This document shows, piece by piece, positions 17,442-27,295 of a stretch of 49,913 bases of DNA (its first letter is position 1; the number at the start of each line of letters is the position of its first letter). Both the position numbers and the translations under genes were made by a program. The DNA lies in the NCBI GenBank assembly GCA_027859175.1, contig JAQIBG010000005.1:1-49913 (forward strand). Direction: 5' to 3'. Source of the stretch: Planctomycetota bacterium (GTDB lineage: Bacteria; Planctomycetota; UBA11346). Under the pieces are notes generated by a model that saw only the letters and a program-made list of their open reading frames with translations, searched no databases and had not been told where the DNA came from.

Positions 17442-17544
17442 CGCAGCAGCATGGGTAGCGGTGCCAAGCCCGCAACCAGCGCACAGGCCCAGCGCCGGGT
17501 CACCGCTTGGTTCGCCTCCAGCTTGGAGTAGCGTCCGCACACAG

Positions 17545-20268
17545 ATGACAGCACAGGTGATCGACGGCAAGGCGGTGGCGAAGCACAGGCGAGATGCCTT
17601 GCGGGGCACCATCGCAGACCTGCAAGCGGGTGGTATCCACCCCTGCCTAGCGGCAATCACCGTTGACGGTGATCCCGCCTGGGGCGTGTACTCGAAACGC
17701 CAGGCGCGCAGCTGTGAACTGCTCAGCATTGTGTATCGGCGCGAGCAACTGCCGGCCGGCAGCACCCAGGAAGACCTGACCGAACGCATTGAGATGCTCA
17801 ACGCCGACGCCTCGGTGCATGGCATCATTATTCAGGCGCCCTTGCAGGAGCCCTTTGATCTGTTTGCGGCGCAAAGCCTGATCTCACCAGCCAAAGACGT
17901 GGAGGGGGTCAACCCCGCCAACCTCGGCCTCGTGCTGGCTGGCCGGGCTGGCATCGCGCCGTGCACCGCACGCAGCGCCTTTGCCCTGGCCGAGCACGCC
18001 ATGGGCGACCTGCGCGGCGTTGAAGCCGTGGTTGTGGGCGCTTCGGTTATCGTTGGGAAACCGGTTGCACAATTGCTGCTCGCGGCTGGCGCCACGGTTC
18101 ACATCTGCCACATCGACACCGTTGACGTGGCAAGCCATACCAGCAAGGCCGACCTCGTGGTGGTGGCGGTTGGCAAGGCCGGTCTGGTGACCGGCGCTAT
18201 GCTCAAGCCGGGCGCGGTGGTGGTGGACGTTGGCATCAACAGCATTAGTGATGCCGACGGCACGCGCATCGTGGGCGATGTTGACCCCGACGCCTGGGAT
18301 GTCGCCGGCCATATCACGCCAGTACCCGGCGGCGTGGGCGCGCTAACCACCACCATTCTGCTCGAACACACGGTACGCGCGGCCGAGGCCCTGCGCGACC
18401 AAGTGCCGGCCTTTGAGGGCGGCGCGCTCACGCGAATTCTTGGCGGCGCGGGCATCGACCTGCCGCCCGATGTAGCCGATCGCCTAGCCGGTCTGCTATC
18501 GCGGCACTTGGTAACCGGTGTATCGGCGATGCCGCATCGCTCGGCCCTCGAGCGGCGCCTAGACCGCGGCTGTCTGGTGTTGGACGGCGGTATCACCAGT
18601 GCGCTGGTAGCGCGCGGCGTTGACGCCACCTGCCCACCACGGGCCAATCTTGATGCCCCAGATGTTGTTCAAGCCGTGCATGAAGACTTCATCGCGGCCG
18701 GTGCCGAGGCCATCACCACCAATACCTTCCACCTCAATCGCTACGATCACGACCGCGAAGAATGCGCCCGTTTGGTGCGCGCTGCGGTGCGCTTGGCGCG
18801 TCATGCCGGCCGTGGCCGCGTAATGGTGCTCGGGTCGATTGGGCCCTTGGGCAAGGTGGTGGGCGTTGAACTCGCAATCGAAGAAGCCGAAGAAGCCTAC
18901 GCCGAACTGGCGATGGAAATGGCTGACGCCGGTGTTGATGGCGTGATCCTGGAGACCTTCCCGTCAACCGCCGATCTCGCTGCCGCGGTGCGTGCAGTGC
19001 GCCGCAGTACCAGTCTGCCAGTGATTGCGTGCCGCCGATACCAGGGCGTGGACCACGACGAGATGGCCGAGTTCGCGCTCGCCATGGAGCGTGACGGCGC
19101 CACTGCCATTGGCCTCAACTGCGTGGGCGGTCCGCGCGCTTTACTCCCAGCGGTATCGCTCCTGGCCGGCCTGACCGACCTTCCGGTTGTAGCGCAGCCC
19201 AATGCTGGCTACCCACGCCGTGATGCCGACGGGCGTCTCAGTTATAGCCTGCGGCCTGCTTGGTTGGCCCGCATGGGCGAAGCGTACGTAGCCGCTGGCG
19301 TGCGCGTCATCGGCGGCTGCTGCGGCGTGGCCCCCGAGCACATCGCTGCGCTCGCCGATACCGTTTCGGGCGCCGTGCCAGGCACCCCGCGTGAAATGGG
19401 GTCTGCTGAAATTCGGGCGGCACGCGCTGCGGCCGCACACCCCTTGCTCGATGCCATGGCAAACGATGCCTTCCCGATTCTCACCCTCATTGCCGGGCGC
19501 TGCGAGATTGGCAGCGCGGCGCAGGCTGCCGGAGAATTGGGCCACGCTGGAGCCGCCGCGATTGGCCTCGATCCCGGTTGGCCAGGTAGCGCCCGCCTGG
19601 GTGAATTGCCGGCGCAATTGCACCACGTGCAAGACCGCGCCGGCGTTCCCGGCATTCTAGCGCTGGAGGCGGGCAGCCTCAGCCTGATTGAAGCCGAATC
19701 GCTGCTGCGCGCCGCGCATCTGCTCGACATTCGCCTGGTCTTGATCGACGCCGGTATTTTTGCCGGCGGGCGCGAAGGTGGCGGCAGCGAAACCGAGCAA
19801 CTGCTCTCGCTGATCGGGCGTCTCAATGCCGGCCGTGACGCCCGTGGCTCGCGTATTGATGGGTACACCGATTTCACGGTTGGTGTGCGCCTGCCCGAAG
19901 AAGCCATGAGCCGCGCCAGCACCTTTGCGGCGGCTGGTGCGGCCTTCTGCACCGTGCAACCGGTGTACGAACCGAGCCGATTCAAGGCGGCGGTGGCGGC
20001 CTATGACGCCGACATCCCACTGCTGGCCGAGGTGCTGGTGCTGCCCGATGCCGATACCGCTGAAGAGTTGGACAACGAAGTGCCAGCGCTATCGGTCCCT
20101 GAGCGTTTGCGGCAGCGTTTATGCAGCGACCCCGATGAAGACGTGGCCGGGGTGCTGCGCTTCTTGGGTGCGTACCGCCATCGCCTGGCCGGCGCGTGTC
20201 TGCTGCTGCCTGATGCGCGCACTGACGCCGCCGTGCAGGTGCTCACCGCAGTGCCCGCGCTGACATGA
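17545..20268 (+). CDS. Trifunctional-like fusion: FolD-like + homocysteine S-methyltransferase + MTHFR-like domain
   Basis: FolD: GIIIQAPLQ, GASVIVGKPVAQLL, ITPVPGGVGALTT; HMT: LDGGITSALVARG, IGLNCVGGP, IGGCCG; MTHFR-like: FCTVQPVYEPSRF, LDNEVPALSVPERLRQRL. Confidence 0.9.
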   Translation: MTAQVIDGKAVAKHRRDALRGTIADLQAGGIHPCLAAITVDGDPAWGVYSKRQARSCELLSIVYRREQLPAGSTQEDLTERIEMLNADASVHGIIIQAPLQEPFDLFAAQSLISPAKDVEGVNPANLGLVLAGRAGIAPCTARSAFALAEHAMGDLRGVEAVVVGASVIVGKPVAQLLLAAGATVHICHIDTVDVASHTSKADLVVVAVGKAGLVTGAMLKPGAVVVDVGINSISDADGTRIVGDVDPDAWDVAGHITPVPGGVGALTTTILLEHTVRAAEALRDQVPAFEGGALTRILGGAGIDLPPDVADRLAGLLSRHLVTGVSAMPHRSALERRLDRGCLVLDGGITSALVARGVDATCPPRANLDAPDVVQAVHEDFIAAGAEAITTNTFHLNRYDHDREECARLVRAAVRLARHAGRGRVMVLGSIGPLGKVVGVELAIEEAEEAYAELAMEMADAGVDGVILETFPSTADLAAAVRAVRRSTSLPVIACRRYQGVDHDEMAEFALAMERDGATAIGLNCVGGPRALLPAVSLLAGLTDLPVVAQPNAGYPRRDADGRLSYSLRPAWLARMGEAYVAAGVRVIGGCCGVAPEHIAALADTVSGAVPGTPREMGSAEIRAARAAAAHPLLDAMANDAFPILTLIAGRCEIGSAAQAAGELGHAGAAAIGLDPGWPGSARLGELPAQLHHVQDRAGVPGILALEAGSLSLIEAESLLRAAHLLDIRLVLIDAGIFAGGREGGGSETEQLLSLIGRLNAGRDARGSRIDGYTDFTVGVRLPEEAMSRASTFAAAGAAFCTVQPVYEPSRFKAAVAAYDADIPLLAEVLVLPDADTAEELDNEVPALSVPERLRQRLCSDPDEDVAGVLRFLGAYRHRLAGACLLLPDARTDAAVQVLTAVPALT

Positions 20269-21068
20269 GTGGTCATATGCTGGTGACTGGAGCCAGCGCT
20301 GGCATCGGCGCCGCGTTATGTCGCCGTGCCGTGGCCCGGGGCTGGCGCGTGACCGCCTGGGCGCGCCGCAGTGAACGCCTAACGGACCTTCAGAGCGAAC
20401 TCGGCGCAGCCTGCCACATCGCCACCGTCGATGTTACCGACGCTGAGAGCATCGCCGCCGGGGTAGCCAGCGCGGTGGCCACGCATGGCGCTTTCAATGC
20501 GATCGTTGCTAATGCCGGTAGGGGGGTCGACGGTGAGATTCTCGATCTCAGCGTTAACGACATCAGTGCGGTGTTCGACGTCAATGTGCTGGGCGTCCAC
20601 CGCTGCCTCCAGGCCACGCGACCGCACTGGGCGGACAAGGCGCGCATCATCATCGTGTCGTCGATTGTGGCCTATTTGTCGATCCCGCGCATGGGAGCCT
20701 ACTGCGCCACCAAGCACGCCGTCGATGCCTATGCCGCTGCGCTGCGCGTTGAGCTCGCCGCCAGCGGGCATCACGTGTGCACCATTAACCCCGGCACCAT
20801 TGATACCGAGTTCTTTGATGTCGCGCCCACGCCAGGCCGCCAGTGGACCTGGCGCCCCGGCCAAGCCCTACGCGCCGAGCGCGTGGCCCGAGCAATGGAG
20901 CGCGTAGCCCGAGGGGGCCACCGGCGCCGTATTGTGCTGCCCGGCAGCGCGTACGCTGTCATTGCCTTGGCTCGGCTGTGCCCAGCTATTGGTGAGAGGT
21001 TATTGCGCCGCGCGCTTGGGCGCATGCGGGCGGCCGAATCAGCTGCAGAAAAGCCTGAGCACCCTTAA
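20265..21068 (+). CDS. SDR family NAD(P)-dependent oxidoreductase
   Basis: TGASAGIGAALCRRAV, ANAGRG, YCATKHAVDAY; overlaps the preceding stop. Confidence 0.88.
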   Translation: MSGHMLVTGASAGIGAALCRRAVARGWRVTAWARRSERLTDLQSELGAACHIATVDVTDAESIAAGVASAVATHGAFNAIVANAGRGVDGEILDLSVNDISAVFDVNVLGVHRCLQATRPHWADKARIIIVSSIVAYLSIPRMGAYCATKHAVDAYAAALRVELAASGHHVCTINPGTIDTEFFDVAPTPGRQWTWRPGQALRAERVARAMERVARGGHRRRIVLPGSAYAVIALARLCPAIGERLLRRALGRMRAAESAAEKPEHP

Positions 21069-22563: not shown

Positions 22564-23676
22564 GTGAGCGACAACCTCGTAAAACGCACCCTGCCGCGCC
22601 CACCCCAGCCAACGGCGCCACTGAAGCGCTATTGGCACCTGCTGTTGGCGCTCGTCATCGCGGTGAGCGCCTTCTCGTACTGGTGGGCTTTCTACGCCTT
22701 CTATGACGTGGGTTACGCCCCGCTGCAGCCTGTGCCATATAGTCACAAGCTGCATGCCGGCGACCTCGGCATCGATTGCAAGTACTGCCACTTCAATGCT
22801 GAGCGCGGCAAGCATGCCGGCGTGCCACCGGTATCGGTGTGCATGGGCTGCCACGCGCCTGAGAAGGGCATGGCAGCCCAGTCGTTTCCGGGTGTGGTCA
22901 AGTTGCTGGAGTTGGCCAACAATGAGGCCGGCTTCTACGACAATGATCAAGACCTGGATCCGGCCGGCGAAGGTGTGCGCAAAGACGGTGGCGTGATCCA
23001 CTGGAACCGCGTCCACAAGCTGCCAGACCACGTGTTCTTCTCGCATCAGTGGCATGTGAAGGCTGGCGTCTCGTGCCAGACCTGCCACGGCCCGATCGAG
23101 ACCATGGAAGTGGTTCAGCAGGCCGAGAACCTGTCGATGGGCTGGTGCATCAGCTGTCACCGCAACGACAACTACGTTGGTGGCCGCGAGTATGACGGCA
23201 GCGCAGAAACCTTCACCGTTGGCACCGCCAACTATGACGTACTGCGCCAGCGGATTCGCCCTGACAACGTGGTGCATTTCCACGAGCCACTCACTGCGAG
23301 TGTGACCGGGCATCATGAAGAGGTCCCGGCTGATGTGAGCCCCGCTGAAGAGGCGGTCGAGGAACATCACGGCCAAACCCTGCGCGGCCTTGAGCGCGAA
23401 AGCCGAGACGAAGACCTGGTCAACCGGACCTACTTCACGCAGGCGCAGTTCGAGAAGCTCAATGAGCTGTTTCAGCACTATCGTCAAGATGACGGCACCA
23501 GCCGTCTGCCCCGCTGGCGGATCGCTGATCTGCCAGAAACCCATGCTCTGTTCTATCTCGATCATGCCGACGCCGATGGCGATGGTAAGGTCGACGATCC
23601 CGCGCTGTTGAAGGATCCTGCCGCTTTTGGCACCTTCCAGAACGCTCCCACCCAGTGCAGCACCTGTCACCAGTAG
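22564..23676 (+). CDS. actA: Alternative complex III subunit ActA, pentahaem cytochrome c
   Basis: Five CxxCH motifs (CKYCH, CMGCH, CQTCH, CISCH, CSTCH), N-terminal TM, GTG start, followed by actB-F. Confidence 0.92.
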   Translation: MSDNLVKRTLPRPPQPTAPLKRYWHLLLALVIAVSAFSYWWAFYAFYDVGYAPLQPVPYSHKLHAGDLGIDCKYCHFNAERGKHAGVPPVSVCMGCHAPEKGMAAQSFPGVVKLLELANNEAGFYDNDQDLDPAGEGVRKDGGVIHWNRVHKLPDHVFFSHQWHVKAGVSCQTCHGPIETMEVVQQAENLSMGWCISCHRNDNYVGGREYDGSAETFTVGTANYDVLRQRIRPDNVVHFHEPLTASVTGHHEEVPADVSPAEEAVEEHHGQTLRGLERESRDEDLVNRTYFTQAQFEKLNELFQHYRQDDGTSRLPRWRIADLPETHALFYLDHADADGDGKVDDPALLKDPAAFGTFQNAPTQCSTCHQ

Positions 23677-23686
23677 GCCCGACGCA

Positions 23687-26600
23687 ATGCCCAGCAAGCA
23701 GTGGAAGAACATCGAGGAGCTGACCAGCTCCACCGCGACGGCCTCGGCCCGCAACGCCGAATTCGGCCCGGATGTGGAGTCGGCTATGGCCGCACTGCGC
23801 ACCGAGTACGGACTCGACGAAGCGGCCGCCGAGCATCGTCCGGTGAAGATCGATACCGACAACGACGCCGTACATCAGGAAGACCTGCGCCAGTTGCTGC
23901 CCTCGGTCAGCCGGCGTGGCTTCATGAAGCTGACCGGCGCCGCCGCGGTATTCGGACTCGCCGGATGCTGGGCCAAGCCCCAGGAAACCCTGGTGCCCTA
24001 CGCCGAGCAGCCTGAGGGCTCCACCATCGGCGAAGCGCGCTACTACTCGACCGCAGTGCGCGTCGACGGTGAGTTCCTGCCGGTCATCGCCAAGCAGTAC
24101 GACGGGCGCCCGATTAAGCTCGAAGGCAACCCCGACGACACCCTCGGCGGCGGCACCTTGAGCCTGCGTGGTCAGGCCAGCCTGCTTGATCTGTACGACC
24201 CCGACCGCTTCCAGAACGGCCCGCTGGCTGCCGGTACGAGCATCGCTTGGGGCGAGCTCGACGCCACCGTTGGCGCCGCTTTGTCGGCCGGTGGTATCGG
24301 CTTGGTCACCGGCCCGATCGACGGCCCCGCCAACAAGCGTCTGCTCGACGCCTGGAAGCAGGCTTTCGGTGCCCGTCTCCAGCACGCCGCGTACAGCCCC
24401 TTCGCCAAAGACGAAGCACGCGCTGCACGCGCCAGCGTGTTCGGCAAGGCGCAGGGGGTTGACGTGGTCTACCACTTCGATCGCGCTGCATCGCTGGTCA
24501 CCTTCGGCTCATGCCCGATCAGCGGCGGCCATGAAGGCCATTACGCCCACGTGGCGATGGGCAAACAGCGTCGCCTCAAGAGTGCCGGCGCCGGCGCCGA
24601 AATGGGACAACTGATCGCCTTCGAACCGATGGTCACCCAGACCGGTTCGGTGGCTGACCTGCGCCAGCGCGTGCCGATGGAACGCATGGACTTCGTGGCC
24701 TGGGCTGTGGCCTACCGCGTTGCTGAATTGCTGAACAAGGAAGCTCTGCTCAACGGCATCTTGACCCGCGCCGACTACCAGGAAGCCGCTGCCGTTGTGT
24801 GCGGTCCGCACCCCAACCTCACGCGCGCCGACGCTCTCTACCCCAACCTCGACAAGCCTGAACTGCAAAACGCGATCGACTTCGCATCAGTCAGCTTGGT
24901 GGCGAACAAGGGTAAGAGCTTGGTCTACGTTGGCGGCGCCATTCACAACACAGACAGCAGCCGTGGCCTGTACCAAGCCGCTGCCTTCATCAACTGGATC
25001 CTCGGCAACGAAGGTCACACCCTTGAGACCAGCCAGGCTGACAGTGCCGTGATCGCCAGCGAAGTCGCCACCAAGGGCGTACTCGCCGCCGCCGCCGCTG
25101 GTAAGCTCAAAACCCTGATCATTGCCGACGCCAACCTCGCCTACAGCCTGCCTGGCGCAGCCGCCCAGATTGCTGCCGCCAAAGATAAGGGCTGCAGCGT
25201 GGTGGTGCTCGCTGAGCGCATGACCGAGACGGCCGCCTTGGCCGATATCGTGGCGCCCACCACGCATAGCCTTGAAAGCTGGGGTGATGGCGAACCGCGC
25301 CCTGGTGTGCTGGCTCTCCAGCAGCCGATGAGCCCGCGCTTCTGGGATAACCGCCAGGTGCAAGACAGCCTGATCAGCTTTGCCGCCGCCGCTGGCGTTG
25401 AGCGCTTCAAGCGCGAAGCCTCTGCGGTCAGCAAGGCCAAGTCGCGCATTAGCAATGTTGCCCTGTGGGACGCAGCAGCAGCCGGTGTGCTTGGCTGGAG
25501 TGCCTTCCTGAAGGAAACCTGGGCCGGCACCGTGCGCACCGCGAGTGGTGTCGCGATTGGTCCGGATGCATTCTGGAAAACCGCGCTCGGGCGTGGCTTT
25601 GTGGCTGTTCCGGCCAAGGGCCCTGGTGCAGCAGGTAGCTTTGCGGCGCAGGCCGTGAAACGCCCGTCTGAGACCAAGGCCAGCGACGCGCGCCTGATCT
25701 TGTCGGCCAGCCGTACGCTGGGTGACGGCAGCCAGGCCAACAATGCGTGGCTCCAAGAAACCCCCGACCCGATCGGTAAGGTCACCTGGGATAACTACCT
25801 TGCGGTCTCGCTGAAAGACGCGCAGCGCCTCGGCTTTAAGAAAGACGACATCGCACAGGTCACCGTGGGCGAAACCAGCTTCACGGTTCCGGTGCAGGTG
25901 CAGCCTGGTCAACTCGAAGGCAGCTATGAGCTGTACCTCGGGTGGGGTCAGACCGAAAGCTTCGGCTCGGTTGCCAACGACGGCGGCCTCGGCCAGCGCA
26001 TCAACGCCTTTGCCCTTACCGACGGCGCCCGCTGGGGCATCCCGGTGCAAGTCGCCAAGGCTGATGGCAGCTACAAGCTGGCTTCTACGCAATACCATCA
26101 CTACATGGATGGTCGCGACATCGCCATGGGCGACTCGATCGAACTACACCGCAAGGATGCCGACGGCAAAATTCGCGCCTCGCATCATCACCACCTGTGG
26201 TCGGGCGGTACCGGCGCCATCAGAACTGGCGACGGCGAAACCCAGAACGACACCAACAACCTCAACTTGTGGGGTCAAACCTTCGTCTATCCTGGCCGTC
26301 GCTGGGGCATGCTGGTTGACCTCAGCGCCTGTGATGGCTGCGGTGCCTGCATCGTTGCCTGTGGTGCGGAAAACAACGTGCCGGTGGTTGGTCGCGAAGA
26401 AGTGCGCCGTGGTCGCGAGATGCACTGGATGCGCATCGACCGCTACTACACCACGCCCTTGATTGAGGGCTATCACAAGGACGACCAGTGGAGCGACAGC
26501 GCCGTCATTGAAGAGCACGACCCCGAGAACCTCGGCGTGGTGCATCAACCGATGATGTGTCAGCACTGCGGTCACGCGCCGTGTGAAGAAGTGTGCCCGG

Positions 26601-27295
26601 CCATGGCCACGATGCACAACGAGGAGACCGTCAACCTGATGATCTACAATCGTTGCATCGGCACCCGTTTCTGCGCCAACAACTGCCCGTACAAGGTGCG
26701 TCGCTTCAACTACTACGAATACTCGAAGATGCGTAAGGGCCCGGATACCAGCGATCCGCTCGGGCGCGTTGCGCGCAATGTCGTCACCGAAGGCTACACC
26801 ACCTCGCAAGAGGAGTTGGGTGGTTGGGAAGCACCGCTAGCGCTGCTGCTTAACCCCACCGTGACGGTGCGCTCCAAGGGTGTCATGGAGAAGTGCAACT
26901 TCTGCATTCAGCGCACCCGCGATATTCGCGAGGGCGAAAAGAAGACCAACCGTGCGTACGACGACACCGATCTGATGAAGACCACGGCCTGCGCGCAAAC
27001 CTGCCCGATGGGGGCGATCACCTTCGGCGACATCGCCGATCCGTTCTCGACCATCACCGAGAAGAAGCATGCTTTCCCGCACCATTACGAGGTGCTGGAC
27101 AAGGTGATCAACACGCGCCCGGCGGTGAGCTATCTCCGCCAGATTCGCAACATCCCGGCCAGTGCCGAAGATCTTGCCAGCCTCGAAGGGGGCCACGGCA
27201 AGAGCGACGCGCGCGACGACGAGGGTCATCACGAGGGTGACGGCCACGATCATGGCAAGGTCACCCATACCCCGACCACGGAGGGTCAGGCCTGA
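23687..27295 (+). CDS. actB: Alternative complex III subunit ActB (molybdopterin-oxidoreductase-like plus Fe-S domain)
   Basis: Tat-like [21 protein letters not shown]-terminal ferredoxin motifs [47 protein letters not shown]. Confidence 0.93.

Follow-up and report, generated by a model that had tools for sequence, protein, structure and literature searches.

A single gene in an uncultured Planctomycetota bacterium encodes a chain of FolD, a homocysteine methyltransferase (HMT) and an MTHFR-fold domain. An earlier note on this DNA had treated an N-terminal FolD on an HMT-MTHFR chain as an unfamiliar architecture, and that judgment held: we conclude that the fusion is genuine and a variant within the YitJ and FolD families, of which no description was found in the open-licence literature searched. 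We consider it reasonably likely that the protein is a lineage-specific fusion in which a dehydrogenase-only FolD, partnered by FchA, is joined to a zinc-site HMT and a non-catalytic MTHFR barrel. The gene lies in a stretch of 49,913 nucleotides (contig JAQIBG010000005.1, here called the window), which carries the following features.

17545..20268, + strand: FolD-HMT-pseudoMTHFR fusion gene, 907 aa, stop codon included
17560..17904, + strand: FolD catalytic domain PF00763, residues 6-120 (Pfam THF_DHG_CYH, 6.6e-26)
17701..17703, + strand: codon 53, where Gln replaces the catalytic Lys (K54 of E. coli FolD), from the alignment to 1b0a
17902..17904, + strand: codon 120, where Glu replaces Asp121 of E. 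coli FolD, from the alignment to 1b0a
17914..18390, + strand: FolD NAD(P)-binding domain PF02882, residues 124-282 (Pfam THF_DHG_CYH_C, 2.8e-51)
18391..18543, + strand: partly helical linker from FolD to HMT, residues 283-333
18574..19365, + strand: homocysteine S-methyltransferase domain PF02574, residues 344-607 (Pfam S-methyl_trans, 1.4e-54)
19120..19122, + strand: Cys526, predicted zinc ligand
19318..19323, + strand: Cys592-Cys593 (GGCCG), predicted zinc ligands
19426..20265, + strand: domain of MTHFR fold with the MTHFR active site lost, about residues 628-907
20265..21068, + strand: short-chain dehydrogenase, its start overlapping the stop of the fusion by 4 bases

The 907-codon frame runs from the ATG at 17545 to the TGA at 20268 without an internal stop; upstream the frame stays open as far as a GTG at 17461, but relatives align from the Met at 17545. 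The earlier note's single 907-aa ORF with three modules was borne out, the third module by fold and descent only: of the Pfam models it had named, THF_DHG_CYH, THF_DHG_CYH_C and S-methyl_trans matched, but the MTHFR model PF02219 had no match in the full protein or in its C-terminal domain alone. The suspected joints at about 18400-18540 and about 19400 are ordinary inter-domain linkers. Residues 283-333 are the least conserved part of the chain (mean identity 42%), and low confidence in the predicted structure is limited to residues 323-331 and 619-625. Full-length, frame-intact relatives in separate assemblies exclude a sequencing or joining error at these positions, and an assembly or frameshift artefact was rejected on the same ground. 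The same chain, 46-56% identical, was found in 16 of the 24 genomes of the window's family, its own genome counted, where the 16 take in whole chains and chains cut by a contig end, with no stop in their frames. Across genera, identity to the window's chain is 59-63% for FolD, 42-59% for HMT and 42-54% for the C-terminal domain.

The fusion's FolD is the only PF00763 match in the window's genome. The earlier note had rightly recognised the module and had overlooked two changes in its active site. When aligned to E. coli FolD (1b0a), the domain retains Tyr50 and Gln98. Gln occupies the Lys54 position in 15 of 15 fusions whose sequence reaches it, so the catalytic lysine of the YxxxK motif, on which cyclohydrolase activity depends, is absent, and Glu occupies the Asp121 position in 16/16 aligned fusions. 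In E. coli FolD, Asp121 binds the pterin (PMC3368264), and the K54N variant has about 19% of its dehydrogenase activity left with cyclohydrolase activity undetectable (PMC5688156). The published mutant carries Asn, and the natural change here is Gln. Human K56Q reportedly has the same outcome as the E. coli K54 mutant. Residue types, taken from aligned columns and sequences, fell into Lys/Asp pairs (n=12) and Gln/Glu pairs (n=39) with no mixed pair in the sampled genomes. Of the 51 FolDs typed in the Planctomycetota sample, 39 and thus the majority are of the Gln/Glu type, which is seen beyond the fusion among the FolDs of G024-G060 (L020-L031, L123-L143). Divergent FolDs outside both pair types were seen in G040 (Ala) and G043 (Leu); the G040 protein (L131, G040:C471) resembles FolD only very distantly, and it has Ala where the Lys would be and Tyr in place of Gln98.

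Some bacteria are served by a separate cyclohydrolase, FchA (PMC7219735). We found the FchA family PF04961 in 37 of 39 Gln-type genomes compared to 4 of 12 Lys-type genomes (Fisher p = 2.9e-5, kinship ignored), with part of the matches sitting in long frames that are possibly FTCD of histidine degradation. Within the window's family the counts were 15/17 and 0/3, respectively (Fisher p = 0.009, kinship again ignored), and the two Gln-type genomes that lack FchA have completeness values of 72% and 68%. In G039 fchA immediately precedes a Gln-type folD, and in G056 fhs, fchA and folD form one cluster. The window's genome encodes an FchA-type PF04961 protein of 188 aa (G000:C267), which probably completes the step from methenyl-THF to 10-formyl-THF next to the fusion's FolD. 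Formate-THF ligase was considered as an alternative source of formyl-THF and rejected, since it was not found in the window's genome and within the family only G007 has one. Because each fusion that could be typed has both Lys54 to Gln and Asp121 to Glu, because the two positions change together without exception across the phylum sample, and because FchA nearly always accompanies the Gln/Glu type, we suggest that the FolD part of the fusion is probably a dehydrogenase only.

The named fusion records are Planctomycetota MAGs from several projects, and family members without the fusion include G001, G009, G022 and G007. No fusion was found outside the family among 297 genomes spread over the phylum, and the genomes outside the family have FolD separate from HMT-MTHFR, the latter mostly encoded by frames 610-800 aa long. 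The long frames of G193, G271, G045, G168, G211 and G056 were tried as further fusions and rejected, with no FolD inside. A scan of 85,462 species with two short peptide patterns, which was not exhaustive, likewise gave no fusion outside the family among its best 80 loci, where the non-family matches were HMT or HMT-MTHFR proteins without FolD. In a maximum-likelihood tree of FolD domains, the fusions, a set that included G021 with the odd tail of its FolD contig, formed one clade (92/86); its sister was the stand-alone Gln-type FolD of G007, and the two together had 100/99 support. All twelve Lys-type FolDs fell in one clade (100/99), with the fusions and G007 outside. The grouping of all fusion FolDs in a single clade makes it probable that the fusion had one origin. 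As for G021, L019 (G021:C325) is a Gln-type FolD near a contig end with a tail unlike that of the other fusions, and a second contig carries a fragment of the fusion's C-terminus; the FolD contig is possibly a chimeric assembly.

The nearest solved structure to the HMT domain is the homocysteine half of T. maritima MetH. Cys526, Cys592 and Cys593, which we take to be zinc ligands from their role in the HMT/MetH family, are retained in 15/16 fusions. The exception is L015 (G020:C171), whose HMT has a gap at C526 together with C592G and C593R. The HMT domain is probably still active. Domains of the S-methyl_trans family are known to take their methyl group from corrinoid or sulfonium/betaine donors, not directly from CH3-THF. 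For B. subtilis YitJ, homocysteine methyltransferase activity with (R,S)-AdoMet has been described (PMC6302742).

Judged by its modelled fold and by descent, the third module is an MTHFR barrel. The AlphaFold2 model of the C-terminal domain has a pLDDT of 93.5, and its closest PDB structures are MTHFRs, with query TM-scores of 0.64-0.73 and identities of 10-15%. PF02219 matches 17/19 aligned C-terminal domains (11 fusions and 8 YitJ types), and the NCBIfam HMT/MTHFR model NF006396 spans residues 334-902 of the window's chain at 279.3 bits, below its cut-off of 453. This alignment and the predicted fold confirmed the HMT-MTHFR order of the B. subtilis YitJ type that the earlier note had read. 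The fusions have lost the catalytic Glu28 of MTHFR in 10/11 cases (L051 retains Glu, and the loss in L048 is a gap) and both the folate-binding Asp120 and His88 in 11/11. All eight YitJ-type relatives retain the three residues, as does the genome's own MetF, and the Gln183 equivalent is retained in 10/11 fusions. The E. coli MetF sequence serves for numbering only, with the genome's own MetF marking identical columns. In MetF, kcat falls to 0.01% in E28Q and 0.3% in D120N, and the catalytic Glu is common even to flavin-independent and F420-dependent reductases (PMC11094777). The C-terminal domain thus appears inactive as an MTHFR, yet not useless: identity of 42-54% across genera indicates selection, which suggests that it serves something other than the MTHFR reaction.

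The window's genome carries a separate canonical MetF and a separate complete five-domain MetH. A second MTHFR-family protein (G000:C463, L152:136-2318, + strand) has a zinc-type (DUF5981/MetV-like) N-terminus and is followed, with an overlap, by a pterin-binding methyltransferase (PF00809); together they look like a C1 or demethylation system. A short-chain dehydrogenase also lies directly downstream of the fusion in four relatives (L044, L047, L048 and L049), and an FtsX-type ABC transporter pair lies upstream of it on the opposite strand and is also near the gene in several relatives. Near the fusion gene there was no Rfam match to a riboswitch, no terminator-like site and one promoter-like site compared to 0.6 expected. 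At 22564-27295 (+ strand) the window encodes a multihaem cytochrome and then a large iron-sulfur protein, which resemble alternative complex III subunits.

Among known systems, the YitJ-type HMT/MTHFR (NF006396, B. subtilis YitJ) shares with the window's chain an HMT followed by an MTHFR fold, matched over 334-902, but the window's chain has an extra N-terminal FolD, lacks the MTHFR Glu, Asp and His, and stays below the curated cut-off (279 vs 453 bits). Bifunctional FolD is alike over the whole fold, in both domains and in Tyr50 and Gln98, whereas the FolD of the window has K54Q and D121E, is fused and pairs with a separate FchA. The stand-alone Gln/Glu-type FolDs of other Planctomycetota carry the same two substitutions and also fall outside the Lys-type clade, but are unfused. 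A division of labour between FolD and a separate cyclohydrolase FchA is found, for example, in Clostridium perfringens (cited in PMC7219735), there with no fusion. The eukaryotic trifunctional C1-THF synthase (MTHFD1) likewise has an N-terminal FolD module on a larger one-carbon chain, where the partner is formyl-THF ligase rather than HMT/MTHFR.

The earlier note had proposed that the fusion couples CH2-THF chemistry to methionine synthesis or serves as a scaffold. Coupling by successive steps on the chain is not supported, given the lost MTHFR residues and the separate MetF and complete MetH; a scaffold could still describe the C-terminal domain. With the catalytic Glu, the folate-binding Asp and His88 missing from the MTHFR-like domain, a relay from CH2-THF through CH3-THF to methionine on one chain is unlikely. 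A working three-step enzyme, with CH2-THF passed between the FolD, MTHFR and HMT sites, would need a re-built barrel site, for example one without flavin, and CH3-THF as direct donor would not fit S-methyl_trans domains, whose known donors are corrinoid or sulfonium/betaine. All three domains are co-conserved on one chain across many genera, the Gln183 equivalent persists in 10/11 fusions and flavin-independent reductases exist (PMC11094777). Nevertheless, with Asp and His lost in 11/11 and the Glu, common even to flavin-independent and F420-dependent enzymes (PMC11094777), lost in 10/11, and with MetF present separately, we regard such an enzyme as very improbable.

We also find it improbable, if slightly less so, that the FolD domain keeps both activities in full, with Gln53 and Glu120 as an alternative active site. 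The perfect co-variation of the two substitutions would be expected of compensating changes, but the E. coli FolD K54 mutant is without cyclohydrolase (PMC5688156) and the Gln/Glu type is accompanied by FchA. A more plausible, though still doubtful, explanation is a near-neutral joining of genes for shared expression, in which FolD would work independently and HMT would be a methyl-repair enzyme like B. subtilis YitJ/SamT using (R,S)-AdoMet. The activity described for YitJ (PMC6302742), the variable linker and the stand-alone FolD of some family members are consistent with this, but the fusion has been kept while identity between the chains fell to about 50%. Furthermore, L015 keeps the chain without its HMT zinc cysteines, which indicates a non-catalytic reason for retention.

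In the reading that we prefer, a Gln/Glu-type FolD gene and a YitJ-type gene (HMT and MTHFR) would have been joined once. The FolD domain would be the cell's CH2-THF dehydrogenase, with methenyl-THF as its product, having lost its cyclohydrolase activity through Lys54 to Gln (with Asp121 to Glu), and 10-formyl-THF would come from the separate FchA, as residues and co-occurrence suggest. The HMT would keep its zinc-homocysteine site and probably still methylate homocysteine, and the MTHFR-like domain, with its barrel retained and its chemistry gone, would be a structural or ligand-sensing remnant. Bulk methionine would be made by the separate MetF and MetH. On this view the fusion would most likely serve to link homocysteine status or methyl-group repair with the oxidative branch of the CH2-THF pool, the HMT being a sensor or side enzyme, although this link is speculative. 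A homocysteine-responsive FolD, in which the HMT and dead MTHFR barrels are built-in sensors (of homocysteine through zinc, and of folate or a SAM-like ligand), is an unlikely form that it could take. If true, the sensors would set the share of CH2-THF that is oxidised toward formyl-THF compared to the share going by reduction to methionine, and the FolD of these organisms would have been cut down to a pure dehydrogenase.

These Planctomycetota offer a natural, phylum-wide case in which FolD has probably lost its cyclohydrolase through replacement of Lys by Gln, matched by replacement of Asp by Glu, and the fusion joins a central one-carbon enzyme with a pseudo-enzyme and an enzyme of homocysteine metabolism. 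Annotations of "FolD" and "MTHFR" in Planctomycetota may therefore overstate function.
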